DNA of 24,937 nucleotides from Candidatus Pacearchaeota archaeon (GTDB lineage Archaea > Nanoarchaeota > Nanoarchaeia > Pacearchaeales > GW2011-AR1), in NCBI GenBank assembly GCA_002686195.1, contig NZAS01000003.1, forward strand, positions 1-24,937, given 5' to 3'. This document shows positions 8,097-24,937 of the stretch, piece by piece (position 1 is the first letter of the stretch; each line of letters begins with the position of its first letter). The notes under the pieces were generated by a model. That model was not told the origin of the DNA. It ran no database searches and saw only the letters and a list, made by a program, of their open reading frames with translations. The position numbers and the translations under genes are program-made.

Positions 8097-8129
8097 AATT
8101 GTTATACTAAAATCAAATCTTCAATTTCT

Positions 8130-8178
8130 AAGTTTTATACTTCAAACGAGAGTTAAAGATTGCTATCGCAATCTTTAA
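8130..8178 (+). repeat. Intergenic repeat with perfect hairpin, copy 1
   Basis: Bases 8130-8162 match 24896-24928 at 30 of 33 positions, the three differences all being transitions. The repeat runs into a perfect hairpin: TTAAAGATTGC (8153-8163), loop TATC, GCAATCTTTAA (8168-8178). The 3' arm merges into CTTTAAAAACC, which resembles the TATA element of the SBDS gene. It may therefore carry a promoter reading toward uL3. The rest of the 228-nt gap holds the trmB promoter and the uL3 leader region. Confidence 0.7.
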
Positions 8179-11451: not shown

Positions 11452-12111
11452 ATGGCTGAAGAAACACAAACACAACAGCAAGAGAAAAAACCTGAAGTCC
11501 CTTCTAGTCAAACTTCTACTCCTGTCCCTCCAAAATCTAATGAACAACCTAAAAAAACAGAAGCTCCTCAATCTCAGCCTTCTACAGATAACAAAGCTCC
11601 AGCTCCTAAAAAAGAAAAATCAAAATCCAAGATTGAAGAAAAACCAAAGAAACCTTTCGTAATAGCTAACGGAAGAAACCTTCACGCTTCAAAGAAACAC
11701 TGCGTTTACATTTCGAGTTTCATCACAAATAAAACAATTGATCAAGCCATCGCAGATTTACAAAAAGTCATAGCAATGAAAACTCCTGTACCCTTCAAAG
11801 GAGAAATCCCTCACAGAAAAGGGAAAATAATGTCCGGTCGTTATCCAGTAAAAGCCTCAGAATTATTCATAGCAGTACTAAAAGGTCTTAAAGGCAACGC
11901 AATTGTTAACAACATGGACTTAGACAAAACAAGAATAGTAGAATCCTCATCTTCATGGGCTTCACGTCCAATGAGGCGTGGCTCCGTCCAAGCAAAAAGA
12001 ACAAATGTAATAATCAAAGCTAAGGAATCTCGCTCACCGCAGCGAGAAGCTCCGCAGCAGAGCGAGGAAGCTCGCAGCAAGAGTGAGTCGAGATCAAAGG
12101 AGGCCAAATAA
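11452..12111 (+). CDS. rpl22: Ribosomal protein uL22 with long N-terminal extension and repeat-encoded tail
   Basis: uL22 lines the peptide exit tunnel. The core (about residues 66-188) is recognisable from GRNLHASKKHCVYISSFITNK through RRGSVQAKRTNVIIKAK. At 219 aa it is longer than the usual archaeal length of roughly 150. Residues 1-65 are a low-complexity Gln/Pro/Lys/Ser stretch, and about 192-216 is an Arg/Ser/Glu/Gln tail encoded by a palindromic DNA element shared with the uL24 gene. Neither end is needed for the fold. The start at 11452 keeps the TAA-a-ATG junction, but a start nearer the core cannot be excluded; no internal Met lies in the extension. TAATG junction to uS3. Confidence 0.94.
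   Translation: MAEETQTQQQEKKPEVPSSQTSTPVPPKSNEQPKKTEAPQSQPSTDNKAPAPKKEKSKSKIEEKPKKPFVIANGRNLHASKKHCVYISSFITNKTIDQAIADLQKVIAMKTPVPFKGEIPHRKGKIMSGRYPVKASELFIAVLKGLKGNAIVNNMDLDKTRIVESSSSWASRPMRRGSVQAKRTNVIIKAKESRSPQREAPQQSEEARSKSESRSKEAK
12026..12094 (+). repeat. Palindromic element inside the uL22 coding tail
   Basis: ATCTCGCTCAC at the left pairs with GTGAGTCGAGAT at the right, leaving one bulged T. An inner GCGAG (12042-12046) can pair with CTCGC (12071-12075). The outer parts are nearly identical to 14428-14474 in uL24. This copy is longer because its interior is roughly doubled (12041-12058 resembles 12059-12078). It is translated in frame as an Arg/Ser/Glu-rich tail. Confidence 0.75.
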
Positions 12112-12788
12112 TGGAAGAAAAGAAATTCGTAACTTTCAAGAAAGAAGAACTTGGCGTAAAAGAATACATCAAGAAAGAACTTGGAAAAGGTAAGATTAGC
12201 TCAGTCTCAATTGAATATACACCCATCGGAGAAAAAATAATCGTAGCAACTTCCAAGCCAGGTTTAGTTATCGGAAGAAGAGGAGAAAAGATAGAAAAGC
12301 TTACTCGTGTTTTGAAGAAAAGATTCCATCTAGACAACCCTCACATTGAAATCCAAGAAATCACAGAACCTTTGCTTGATGCTCAATTGGTTGCAGATGA
12401 AATCGCAGTAATGCTCGAACGTAAAGGCTCATTGAAGTTCAAAGTCATAGCATATAAAATGCTTCAAGAAATAGTAAAAGCCGGAGCTTTAGGTGTTGAA
12501 ATCCGTCTTAATGGAAAACTCCCAAGCGACCGTGCTAGATCCTGGAGATTCGCACAAGGATACTTGAAAAAAACAGGAGACCCAGCAAAAGTTGTGGACA
12601 AAGCCCAAAGCCAAGCTGTAACTGTCCCCGGAGTTGTAGGTATAGATGTATCAATCTTACCTCCAGATGCACACATCCATGATAAGATAGTTATCGACGA
12701 CAAAGTCAAAGCACAAATTAAAAATCTTCCAGTAGAACCTGAGCCAGAAAAAAAGAAAAAAACTAAATCCAAGAAGGCCAAAAAATGA
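12111..12788 (+). CDS. rps3: Ribosomal protein uS3
   Basis: uS3 lies at the mRNA entry channel of the small subunit. The 225-aa protein contains a type II KH domain with the GRRG loop at 55-58 (SKPGLVIGRRGEKIEKL) and the C-terminal domain around residues 120-190 (GVEIRLNGKLPSDRARSWRFAQGYLKK). A Lys-rich tail ends PEKKKKTKSKKAKK. TAATG start junction with uL22; ATGA overlap with uL29. Confidence 0.97.
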   Translation: MEEKKFVTFKKEELGVKEYIKKELGKGKISSVSIEYTPIGEKIIVATSKPGLVIGRRGEKIEKLTRVLKKRFHLDNPHIEIQEITEPLLDAQLVADEIAVMLERKGSLKFKVIAYKMLQEIVKAGALGVEIRLNGKLPSDRARSWRFAQGYLKKTGDPAKVVDKAQSQAVTVPGVVGIDVSILPPDAHIHDKIVIDDKVKAQIKNLPVEPEPEKKKKTKSKKAKK

Positions 12789-13003
12789 GTATCCTAAAAG
12801 CAAAAGAAGCAATCAATTTTAGCCCCCAACAAAGAAAAGAAAAGTTGAAAGAATTAAAGTTAGAACTAGTAAAAGCAAACGTGACTTCCCAAAAAACAAC
12901 TTCAAAAACAAAAGAAATCAAGAAAGCAATTTCAAGATTATTAGGCAGTGAAAAATCAGATTCAATACCTCCAAAGAAAAAGGAGGAATTGAAAGAAAAA
13001 TAA
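12785..13003 (+). CDS. rpl29: Ribosomal protein uL29
   Basis: This two-helix protein sits near the tunnel exit beside uL23. The 72-aa protein shows the usual antiparallel helices (QQRKEKLKELKLELVKANV, then KTKEIKKAISRLLG), with a charged C-terminal tail of about 17 residues. It overlaps uS3 by ATGA. Two bases separate its stop from the aIF1 ATG. Confidence 0.94.
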   Translation: MSILKAKEAINFSPQQRKEKLKELKLELVKANVTSQKTTSKTKEIKKAISRLLGSEKSDSIPPKKKEELKEK

Positions 13004-13005
13004 AC

Positions 13006-13302
13006 ATGGATACAAACGAATTCGGCATACCGACACAAGCCGACGTGTTTGAGGAAATCGCAAAGGGCGAGCAAAATATCCTGGTAACGATAGAAACAAG
13101 GCGGTACGGAAAGAAGATAACCCTTGTTTCAGGGTTCGACAAGACCGTGGATCTGAAGGCGATCGGAAAATCGCTAAAGGCAGTGCTTGCTTGCGGTGGC
13201 ACCATCAAGGATGGCGTCATTGAACTACAAGGAGACCATAAAAAGGCTGTTAAACCAGCTTTGGTAAAACTTGGTTTCCCAGAAGACACCATAAGCGATT
13301 AA
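13006..13302 (+). CDS. Translation initiation factor aIF1 (SUI1/eIF1)
   Basis: aIF1 binds the small subunit near the P site and enforces start-codon fidelity. The 98-aa length is normal. The SUI1 fold is evident from ILVTIETRRYGKKITLVSGFD and from the C-terminal half (LKAVLACGGTIKDGVIELQGDHKKAVKPALVKLGF, a segment close to invariant in the family). Its place after uL29 is the standard archaeal order. The RNase P protein Rnp1, usually found next, is absent. The first 65 or so codons are about 51% G+C with unusual choices such as CGG, GTG and CTG, against about 30% in uL29; the last 30 codons look native. Confidence 0.95.
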   Translation: MDTNEFGIPTQADVFEEIAKGEQNILVTIETRRYGKKITLVSGFDKTVDLKAIGKSLKAVLACGGTIKDGVIELQGDHKKAVKPALVKLGFPEDTISD

Positions 13303-13312
13303 CCAAACAAAA

Positions 13313-13323
13313 GAAATAAAAAG
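13313..13323 (+). promoter_or_regulatory. Possible internal promoter before uS17
   Basis: The operon's longest gap, apart from that holding the 22-codon ORF, is the 41 nt after aIF1. It contains GAAATAAAAAG centred 26 nt before the uS17 ATG, the spacing of the leaderless promoters elsewhere in the window. It is A-rich and not very distinctive. Confidence 0.3.
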
Positions 13324-13343
13324 CAAACAAAAACAGAAATAAC

Positions 13344-13670
13344 ATGGCAGAAAAAACAAAAGTCCAGAAAGAAAAATCCTCCCAAGAGGCAACAAAAACC
13401 ATAGTTGGAACCAGGGGGCGAGTATTTGAGGGCCAAGTAGTTAAGAAGTTCCCACACAGAGTCGTAATTGAATTTGAAAGAGTTGTAAAGATCCAAAAAT
13501 ACGAAAGATTCCACAAAAAGAAAACAAGAATCCACGCTCGACTTCCAGAAGGATTGCCTGTGGATTTACATGATATTGTACAAGCCCAAGAATGTCGACC
13601 ATTAAGCAAGATAGTCCATTTCATCGTCCTAAAAGTCATAAAGAAAGCCCCCAAGGAGGAAGCAGCATGA
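13344..13670 (+). CDS. rps17: Ribosomal protein uS17
   Basis: This OB-fold protein binds 16S rRNA early in assembly. The 108-aa protein has the family core at about 25-95: RGRVFEGQVVKKFPHRVVIEFERVVKI, KYERFHKKKTRIHARLP, and then the DIVQAQECRPLSKIVHFIVLKVI strand pair. About 20 N-terminal residues are a charged extension. It is preceded by a 41-nt gap rather than a tight junction and overlaps uL14 by ATGA. Confidence 0.96.
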   Translation: MAEKTKVQKEKSSQEATKTIVGTRGRVFEGQVVKKFPHRVVIEFERVVKIQKYERFHKKKTRIHARLPEGLPVDLHDIVQAQECRPLSKIVHFIVLKVIKKAPKEEAA

Positions 13671-14068
13671 AACCAATAACAGCCAAAGCCACAAGAGCAT
13701 TGAATATAGGCTCATTAGTAACAGCCGCAGACAATAGTGGAGCGAGAATCGTAAAAATAGTTAGCGTTAAGCATGGTAAATCCCGAAAAGGCCGTCAACA
13801 ATATGCAAAAATCGCAGATTGGGTAAAAGTTTCAGTCCGTGCCGGCAAACCAGATATGAAAGGCAAAGTATTCGACGCTGTCGTAATAAGACAAAAACGT
13901 TCTTACAAAAGATTAACAGGAGAACGTATTACCTTCGAAGACAATGCAGTTGCCTTATTAAAAGACGACAAAGGAAACCCACAAGGAACTCAAATCAAAG
14001 GCCCAGTTGCCAGAGAAATCCACGAGCGCTGGCCTCAAGTATCTAAAATCGCACAATTCGTACTATGA
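13667..14068 (+). CDS. rpl14: Ribosomal protein uL14
   Basis: This beta-barrel protein sits on the large-subunit interface. The start is placed at 13667, giving 133 aa. It forms an ATGA overlap with uS17 and makes the protein begin MKPITAKATRALNIGS, as archaeal uL14 does. The frame is open further left but only through uS17. Conserved blocks are TAADNSGARIVKIVSV, ADWVKVSVRAGKPDMKGKVFDAVVIRQ and FEDNAVALLKDDKGNPQGTQIKGPVAREI. Confidence 0.97.
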   Translation: MKPITAKATRALNIGSLVTAADNSGARIVKIVSVKHGKSRKGRQQYAKIADWVKVSVRAGKPDMKGKVFDAVVIRQKRSYKRLTGERITFEDNAVALLKDDKGNPQGTQIKGPVAREIHERWPQVSKIAQFVL

Positions 14069-14553
14069 AATCCAAATACTCAACTTCATGGAAAGCAAGT
14101 AAACAGCCAAGAAAACAAAGAAAATACAAAGCCAACGCCCCATTACACACAAGGCATAAATTTTTAAACGCAAACTTGTCAAAGACATTAAGAAAAAAGT
14201 ATGGCAAGAGAGCTCTTCCTCTCAGGAAAGGGGATGAGGTGCTTGTTATGCGCGGCTCTTTCAAAAAGAAAAAGGCAAAAATCGTTTCTGTTGATTTGCG
14301 AAGAACTCGTGTTACCCTTGAAAACATTCAAAGAACAAAGAAAGACGGAACAAAAGTGTCAGTACCTTTTTCACCATCTTCTCTTCAAATTCAAACTTTA
14401 ACTGAAGAAGACAGAAAACGTTTTAAGAATCTCGCTCACCGTAGCGAGTCCTCGAGCAAGAGTGAGTCGAGATTGAAACAAACAGAAGCCCCAAGTAAAA
14501 CTCCTCCAACAAAAACTGCGGATTTACCAGATAATAAAAAGGAGAAAAAATAA
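14065..14553 (+). CDS. rpl24: Ribosomal protein uL24 with two repeat-derived segments in its C-terminal tail
   Basis: uL24 is an assembly initiator for the large subunit. The core (about 1-115) includes the archaeal N-terminus (PRKQRKYKANAPLHTRHKF) and a KOW motif at about 53-76 (RKGDEVLVMRGSFKKKKAKI). The 162-aa length exceeds the usual 120 or so because of a tail from residue 121. Residues about 122-136 are encoded by the palindromic element also found in uL22. Residues 151-157 (TADLPDN) are encoded by the 24-nt repeat also present at 490-513. ATGA start overlap; TAA-a-ATG to eS4. Confidence 0.95.
   Translation: MKSKYSTSWKASKQPRKQRKYKANAPLHTRHKFLNANLSKTLRKKYGKRALPLRKGDEVLVMRGSFKKKKAKIVSVDLRRTRVTLENIQRTKKDGTKVSVPFSPSSLQIQTLTEEDRKRFKNLAHRSESSSKSESRLKQTEAPSKTPPTKTADLPDNKKEKK
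14428..14474 (+). repeat. Palindromic element inside the uL24 coding tail
   Basis: AATCTCGCTCAC (14428-14439) pairs with GTGAGTCGAGATT (14462-14474), giving 12 bp with one bulged T. The inner sequence can extend the hairpin (CGAG with CTCG). Both outer blocks match the uL22 copy almost base for base, but the first block is read one frame apart in the two genes (LAHR here, SRSP there). The second block is read in the same frame (SKSESR). Confidence 0.75.
14514..14537 (+). repeat. 24-nt exact dispersed repeat, copy 2
   Basis: Identical to 490-513 over 24 bases, with different bases on both sides. It lies 39 nt downstream of the palindromic element, so the uL24 tail carries two unrelated repeats. 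It encodes TADLPDN, as in copy 1. Confidence 0.85.
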
Positions 14554-24871: not shown

Positions 24872-24895
24872 ATTTCTCCGAAATCTTTAAACTCG

Positions 24896-24937
24896 AAGCT
24901 TTATACTTCAAGCGAGAGTCAAAGATTGTACCACAAT
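24896..24937 (+). repeat. Intergenic repeat with hairpin, copy 2 (cut by window end)
   Basis: The 33 nt at 24896-24928 match 8130-8162 with three transitions. The hairpin 5' arm AAAGATTGT (24921-24929) is followed by ACC and ACAAT, the first half of its complement, when the window stops. Compared with copy 1, the arm change C to T is matched by G to A in the opposite arm. Confidence 0.65.

Follow-up and report, generated by a model that had tools for sequence, protein, structure and literature searches.

A bulged palindrome shared by two archaeal ribosomal protein genes probably belongs to a mobile element family that adjoins tRNA genes in Pacearchaeota

Introduction

Selfish palindromes that insert in frame into genes are best known from Rickettsia, and the Rickettsia palindromic elements (RPE) are described as bacterial sequences of ~150 bp that insert in frame (PMC10969869). 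Other close analogies come from mitochondria, namely the GC clusters, whose short flanking direct repeats (AG or ACT) are likened to target-site duplications (PMC4478555), and the double-hairpin elements of fungal mitochondria (PMC4478555 and PMC7218506). Repetitive extragenic palindromic (REP) sequences are palindromic repeats of bacteria and archaea that in E. coli measure 14-40 nt and seldom overlap coding regions (PMC12306157). Here, we describe a palindrome that occurs twice in a stretch of 24,937 nt from a Candidatus Pacearchaeota archaeon (NCBI GenBank assembly GCA_002686195.1, contig NZAS01000003.1, positions 1 to 24,937, forward strand; hereafter the window), once in the gene for ribosomal protein uL22 and once in that for uL24. 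We put at roughly 0.8 the probability that both represent one selfish, non-autonomous palindromic element, which is or was mobile in Pacearchaeota. An archaeal family would mean that in-frame selfish palindromes are not peculiar to one bacterial genus; the listings of searches in the open-licence PubMed Central literature (subscription papers and preprints being outside this scope) yielded no description of an archaeal family of such palindromes.

Two palindromes in the tails of uL22 and uL24

By its uS3 protein, the window is nearest to loci of Candidatus Pacearchaeota or Nanoarchaeota (DPANN), with at most 82% identity. Twenty copies of the palindrome, both window copies included, were aligned by sequence (alignment A1), and the alignment was converted into a covariance model (R1). 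The two copies and their hosts are as follows.

12026..12095, + strand: palindromic element (70-nt class) that continues the uL22 reading frame within the C-terminal tail, peptide ESRSPQREAPQQSEEARSKSESRS
12027..12037, + strand: left arm of the outer stem of the uL22 copy, pairing with 12083-12094 (fold and A1 pair table)
12083..12094, + strand: right arm of the outer stem of the uL22 copy, with an unpaired T at 12088 (fold)
14428..14474, + strand: palindromic element (47-nt class) that continues the uL24 reading frame within the C-terminal tail, peptide NLAHRSESSSKSESR
14428..14439, + strand: left arm of the outer stem of the uL24 copy, pairing with 14462-14474 (fold)
14462..14474, + strand: right arm of the outer stem of the uL24 copy, with an unpaired T at 14467 (fold)
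11452..12111, + strand: host gene uL22 (Pfam PF00237, identical protein P0121; NCBIfam NF003260, E 6e-22, under the curated cut-off)
14065..14553, + strand: host gene uL24 (NCBIfam TIGR01080, E 1.6e-39, above cut-off)

The preliminary description of this DNA had claimed two shared outer blocks that pair with one another around a bulged T, and exact matching and folding agree with it. The left block AATCTCGCTCACCG is identical at 12026-12039 and 14428-14441 and the right block AGCAAGAGTGAGTCGAGAT (19 nt) at 12076-12094 and 14455-14473, and the arms pair over 12 bp in the uL24 copy and over 11 bp plus a C-G in the uL22 copy, each with one bulged T. Allowing up to three mismatches, the right block is found twice in the window against 0.00 expected from shuffled windows, whereas the left block is found three times against 1.27 expected, which is weak evidence taken alone. 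Both copies fold better than their shuffles (z -2.91 and -3.25) and are richer in G+C (0.60 and 0.54) than the window (0.37). Model R1 scores them at 91.7 bits (E 1.2e-23) and 46.1 bits (E 3.5e-10), each copy being itself part of the R1 training alignment. There is no third convincing copy in the window by the model with filters off, the next best match reaching 11.8 bits (E 0.33).

The left block is translated as ESRSPQR in uL22 and as NLAHRSE in uL24, and the right block as SKSESR in both, so that the reported shift of one frame between the left blocks stands; a predicted example of an insert-encoded peptide is SPQREAPQQSEEAR. In uL22, the junction falls within the codon for the Glu of KAKE, the motif that closes the conserved core. 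It had further been proposed that ordinary homologues lack the tails themselves. This does not hold for the uL24 tail, since most of the uL24 relatives listed carry a variable charged one, but it does hold for the inserted segment, which those relatives are without.

A dispersed family in related genomes

Beyond the window, all copy counts come from the genomes of relatives, which are drafts of unknown completeness. When 25 Pacearchaeota genomes were searched by blastn for the uL22 copy, nine had matches (E ≤ 1) and four of these (G025, G005, G008 and G024) had strong copies (up to 90% identity, E 1e-20). In uS3, by contrast, protein identity to the window is no more than 75% for G005 and 71% for G025. 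Chance similarity, or convergence of charged peptides in ribosomal protein tails, might be entertained on the grounds that K-, E- and S-rich tails are common in these proteins. However, nucleotide identity (up to 90%) that exceeds the identity of uS3 (71-75%), the existence of noncoding copies, the covariation and the specificity of the model refute it.

Across 200 genomes of the order, scanned with strict filters and at most 25 candidates scored per genome, R1 matches 17 at E 1e-3 and a second model (R2) matches 18, leaving 182 without a match. When up to 150 candidates were scored, R2 gave 99 matches across 17 genomes, the richest genome having 26; many copies had been predicted for a mobile element, and the relatives do hold them. 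An even sample of the phylum gave matches at E 1e-4 in 12 of 371 genomes, nine of which were already in the order sample; the other three (G300, G309 and G409) are weak (E 6e-6 to 5e-5). R1 was trained on copies that resemble the one in uL22, so that more divergent subfamilies may have escaped it. The model is specific: in 560 kb of other loci it has a single match, and this one, in the uL24 gene of L008, is itself a member of the family. No exact match to two core patterns was found in the viral contig collection.

Searches with Rfam 15 returned for the window copies only a sub-threshold match to SMAD5-AS1_2 (18 bits vs 50) on the opposite strand and, in 10 and a further 14 other loci, tRNA, 5S rRNA, a group I intron and one sub-threshold plastid match, none naming the element. 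A known Rfam RNA as the identity of the element was rejected, no family matching at the copies. H/ACA and C/D guide RNAs were set aside by inspection for their box motifs.

For classification we retained 92 distinct copies, obtained from 97 model matches in 82 sources, of which five represent the same place fetched twice; additional R2 matches were left out of this set.

Covariation and size classes of the hairpin

Alignment A1 is a sequence alignment that was not fitted to structure. In it, 95.5% of the cells are paired, 18 of 23 pairs contain double changes and 82 cells are changed on both sides against seven on one side; the pairing and double-change values were reached by none of 500 shuffles (the number of further pair types by 34 of 500), and pairing falls to at most 38% when the partners are slid. 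An alignment of all copies (A2), which is model-fitted and so biased towards the model, gives 96.1% pairing and 447 two-sided against 48 one-sided changes. The bulge column is T in all 20 rows of A1 and, among the 92 distinct rows of A2, T in 82, a gap in nine and C in one. So few one-sided (G-U) changes would be expected of a palindrome kept as DNA rather than as RNA. Compensatory changes, together with the use of two reading frames (10 and 2 of the 12 coding copies described below), bear out the proposal that the nucleic acid and not the peptide is conserved.

Copies are mostly 47, 63-67, 69-74 or 80-81 nt long (one is 94 nt). The 70-nt and 47-nt copies of the window have arms in common, and the same tendency is general: arm identity across size classes within a genome is 0.749, against a mean of 0.637 and a maximum of 0.693 in 500 shuffles of the genome labels (four partial copies, the odd copy of L129 and copies under 45 nt were omitted). 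Arms are thus alike within a genome, as if the ends were the recognized part.

Copies at the ends of tRNA genes

The preliminary description saw two ribosomal genes as the hosts, which proves too narrow: the hosts are tRNA genes and mostly proteins of translation, and the exact end of a tRNA gene is preferred. An intact tRNA gene is found no more than 3 nt away from 34 of the 92 copies, which come from 12 genomes, and for 22 of these the distance is exactly 0; random placement in the same loci gave a mean of 0.20 flush copies and a maximum of 3 (2000 draws). All 34 contact the tRNA gene by their left end, 26 after the tRNA 3' end in sense and eight before the 5' end in antisense, and there are no right-end contacts. 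The tRNA genes were called with ARAGORN (default code, with and without introns), which overlooked some tRNAs (e.g., at the tRNA-like 3' end before L097:4052); the flush counts are therefore probably lower bounds.

Four further copies lie inside tRNA-Gly(GCC) genes of four genomes, at the canonical intron position (L102:5166-5239, L115:3039-3102, L077:1501-1565 and L089:1501-1547), and belong to different size classes. In these four genomes the intron is made up largely of the element copy, suggesting that a tRNA intron can arise from the element or grow by its insertion. Among the 54 remaining copies, at least 9 nt of tRNA sequence adjoin the left end in 20 and the right end in five. In many such cases the adjoining sequence repeats the 3' end of a nearby tRNA, and the order is tRNA, ~60-490 nt of other DNA (hairpin-rich in the cases inspected), 11-16 nt of the tRNA 3' end, element; in others an antisense element is joined to a tRNA 3' fragment that starts in the T arm or further 3'. 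A motif of the right half occurs within 300 nt of copies 13 times on the right and once on the left, against a background of two in 426 kb; 11 of the 13 right-side matches are fragments, but the left-side one is not, and those that are not fragments belong to full copies nearby. Since the right side is the tRNA-distal one in tRNA-joined copies, insertion looks polar, although mainly in one genome.

Could the hairpin instead be a functional RNA of tRNA transcription units, such as a trailer stabilizer, a terminator or an appended small RNA, with the coding copies as spill-over? The 26 sense copies directly after tRNA 3' ends and the strong conservation of the structure would fit such a role. 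They have to be set against the eight antisense copies at tRNA 5' ends, the 12 copies in coding genes, the 182 of 200 order genomes without a match under strict filters, the lack of any Rfam family at the copies and the scarcity of G-U intermediates (48 one-sided vs 447 two-sided changes), as in a DNA palindrome, and we consider a functional RNA unlikely.

Several arrangements at these loci were noted in passing. Behind tRNA-Leu(aag), one copy directly follows another, and the second has lost part of its left arm (L098:3048-3184). At L057:1290-1720 and L061:1280-1580, another palindrome (TATGC...GCATA) directly follows tRNA-Gly genes and is itself followed by a tRNA 3' half whose T loop is, by eye, seemingly interrupted by two hairpins, which hints at further palindrome families at the same tRNA ends. 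A group I intron (Rfam RF00028, E 1e-19) of a Pacearchaeota genome lies at L120:2644-2871, close to an element copy and also near repeats resembling tRNA 3' fragments.

Copies in coding sequence and empty sites

Twelve copies overlap coding sequence in the sense orientation, and 11 of them are read through in frame, the exception being the uL24 copy of G008, in which a stop within the element ends the protein. The hosts are uL22 (window, G025), uL24 (window, G008), uS11 (G177, G008), uS3 (G135), uS4 and eL31 (G025), methionyl-tRNA synthetase (MetRS; G025, G172) and family B DNA polymerase (G178), and genes for ribosomal proteins account for seven of the ten full copies outside the window. A thirteenth copy, only partial, lies in the tail of uS3 in G025. 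The 12 were chosen from open frames by inspection and family matches. Other open frames over copies, several of them antisense, were taken to be spurious, and L097:385 and the L095 copy, which stand shortly before an aIF2-beta and an FtsX gene, were excluded.

At the start, 10 of the 12 (the truncated G008 uL24 copy included) use the frame that in typical copies reads SPQRxxPQQSEEARSKSES, and two, window uL24 and G025 uL22, use the LAHRSE frame. Within the large size class (69-74 nt), all eight coding copies are exactly 70 nt long, against 18 of 46 other copies, which suggests selection for frame and hence translation. An mRNA-spliced intron or a translational bypass was dropped as an explanation, because 11 of the 12 coding copies keep the frame; translational bypass is known from mitochondria. 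The dinucleotide G-A marks the left junction of 9 of the 12 copies, against a background of 8% in the same genes (p 2e-8).

Comparison of hosts between relatives reveals the clean empty sites that had been proposed as a test of mobility. MetRS was compared in 14 genomes, of which 13 are informative (the reading of G015 is cut at an internal stop): G172 has an insert after KKPWE, G025 has one between the conserved YC..C and CP.H motifs and the other 11 have neither. By approximate pattern match, an element-like peptide stands at or near the same place of uL22 in five of the 119 homologues listed (of 882 found; P0130, P0155, P0158, P0159 and P0192) and of uL24 in none of the 119 listed (of 1500 found). 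With so few uL22 homologues bearing the insert, the site looks like one of recurrent insertion, or like an old one that was often lost. The outcome that was to speak against mobility, namely only two copies and a tail conserved in all relatives, is not what we observe.

For two antisense copies in G135 (L085:1501-1569 and L103:3032-3112), the left end coincides exactly with the beginning of an open reading frame, to which the element contributes the first two bases of the ATG; transcript starts might be targets as well, in parallel to the antisense junctions at tRNA 5' ends.

Possible recent spread and candidate machinery

Three near-identical pairs (two in G144 and one in G008; 69/70, 70/71 and 46/47 identical) sit at or near different tRNA genes, and these single-base differences indicate recent spread or gene conversion. 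Enzymes that might mobilize the element were sought in the same drafts, whose possible incompleteness makes the absence of an enzyme weak evidence. Y1_Tnp occurs in 76 of the 200 order genomes but in only 6 of the 18 that bear the element, and eight of the nine copy-richest genomes are without it in their drafts; Cas1 is present in 1 of 18 against 10 of 200 and IS110 in 1 of 18 against 4 of 200. A tyrosine recombinase occurs in 17 of 17 bearing genomes but also in 14 of 14 controls and is uninformative.

These counts bear on the idea that the copies are REP-like derivatives, or resemble miniature inverted-repeat transposable elements (MITEs), and that an already known DNA transposase (Y1/HUH, IS110 or casposase) acts on them in trans. 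The bulged hairpin and the one-ended junction do resemble IS200/IS605 and REP hairpins, and arms alike within a genome across size classes (0.749 vs 0.637) are in keeping with a transposase; linkage to Y1/HUH transposase, Cas1 or IS110 was nevertheless rejected, as the genes do not track the element in the draft genomes, and we regard movement by such an enzyme as improbable. Slightly less improbable is a route through RNA, by which element RNA would be joined to tRNA ends, or reverse-transcribed with template jumping, and then recombined into the genome. It would account for junctions at mature tRNA ends (after N73 and before position 1) and within the T arm, and the coding hosts are mostly translation genes, which as a general expectation are highly expressed. 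Against this, a reverse transcriptase was found in 7 of 17 bearing genomes and not in the draft of G025, the copy-richest genome, the antisense 5' junctions require a second step and G-U pairs are rare.

A proposed mode of insertion

Taken together, copy number, empty sites, covariation and the use of two reading frames support a mobile palindrome like the RPE, as the preliminary description had envisaged. The following points weigh against a mobile element: the case for mobility is drawn from differences between species, in draft genomes; no mobilizing enzyme was found there and none of those tested tracks the element; no target-site duplication is evident by eye at the flush tRNA sites, and inspection established none at the coding copies either; 22 of the 92 copies belong to none of the classes described; and the data on polarity are few, 9 of the 13 right-side matches coming from G005 and two lying in another full copy.

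In all tRNA classes, the left tip is at the 3' end of something structured. In sense copies this is the 3' end of the tRNA and in antisense ones the strand complementary to its 5' end; other copies join within the T arm or where the intron sits. It is this regularity that leads us to propose joining to a DNA 3' end. We hypothesize that copies of the element are inserted by an activity that is probably host-encoded. It would join the left hairpin tip to a 3' end of DNA that lies free where structured sequence begins or stops. Such an end may arise when a tRNA-like fold in the strand is encountered by a polymerase or nuclease; the joining could be transposition-like or occur by template switching, and a transposase acting on hairpins or a recombinase would also serve. 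The element prefers the exact ends of tRNA genes (3' in sense, 5' in antisense), the place of the intron in tRNA-Gly, second copies of tRNA 3' fragments and coding sequence, the last mostly at G-A dinucleotides. The coding targets, marked only by G-A, are unexplained by structure. New copies may enter beside the tRNA, older ones being pushed outward (a pattern seen mainly in one genome), and coding copies would survive only where a disordered peptide is tolerated, being kept in frame and presumably translated.

That this amounts to a new mode of mobility, in which machinery external to the element joins its left tip to exact tRNA gene ends in either orientation with tRNA-proximal entry, is a tentative proposal to which we give somewhat less than even odds. 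If it is true, the borders of tRNA genes are polar recorders of insertions, with in-frame spill-over into translation genes. Exact one-ended attachment to tRNA ends points to an insertion process that no enzyme tested here explains. The family invades universal genes (uL22, uS11, MetRS and DNA polymerase B). With copies that border mature tRNAs, occupy the site of an intron or extend ribosomal proteins, it bears on the origin of introns, tRNA flanks and lineage-specific ribosomal protein tails.

Other repeats in the window

Two more repeats were seen in the window. An exact 24-nt direct repeat (encoding TADLPDN) occurs at 490-513, in an unrelated open reading frame (29-703), and at 14514-14537, in the uL24 tail just behind the palindrome, and is possibly a second small dispersed sequence. 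An intergenic hairpin-like repeat of 48 nt lies at 8115-8162 and 24881-24928 (85% identical), its outer arm being faintly like that of the element.

Comparison with known systems

Like the RPE, with which we compare it by description, the element is a short palindrome dispersed in a small genome and lies in frame in unrelated genes (here 11 of 12 coding copies); unlike them, it is archaeal, mostly 47-81 nt long (one copy 94 nt), usually carries a bulged T and is often at tRNA ends. With the GC clusters and double-hairpin elements it shares the character of a tiny mobile palindrome of compact AT-rich genomes that varies in copy number and encodes no enzyme, whereas for the AG or ACT repeats that flank GC clusters no counterpart was established here. 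REP sequences differ in being shorter and seldom coding: most copies of 47-81 nt, with 12 of 92 in coding sequence, place the element outside the REP definition. REP sequences are also linked to the RAYT / Y1 transposase, a link that does not appear here, with Y1_Tnp in 6 of 18 bearing genomes. MITEs resemble the element in their terminal inverted repeats, here outer arms pairing over 11-12 bp with a bulged T; of the target-site duplication of MITEs nothing is evident by eye at the flush sites, and other copies have duplicated tRNA 3' fragments. Integrative elements and casposons, finally, likewise target the 3' end of tRNA genes and give rise to second copies of tRNA 3' fragments, but they bring their own integrase and are kilobases long, whereas the body seen here is a hairpin only.

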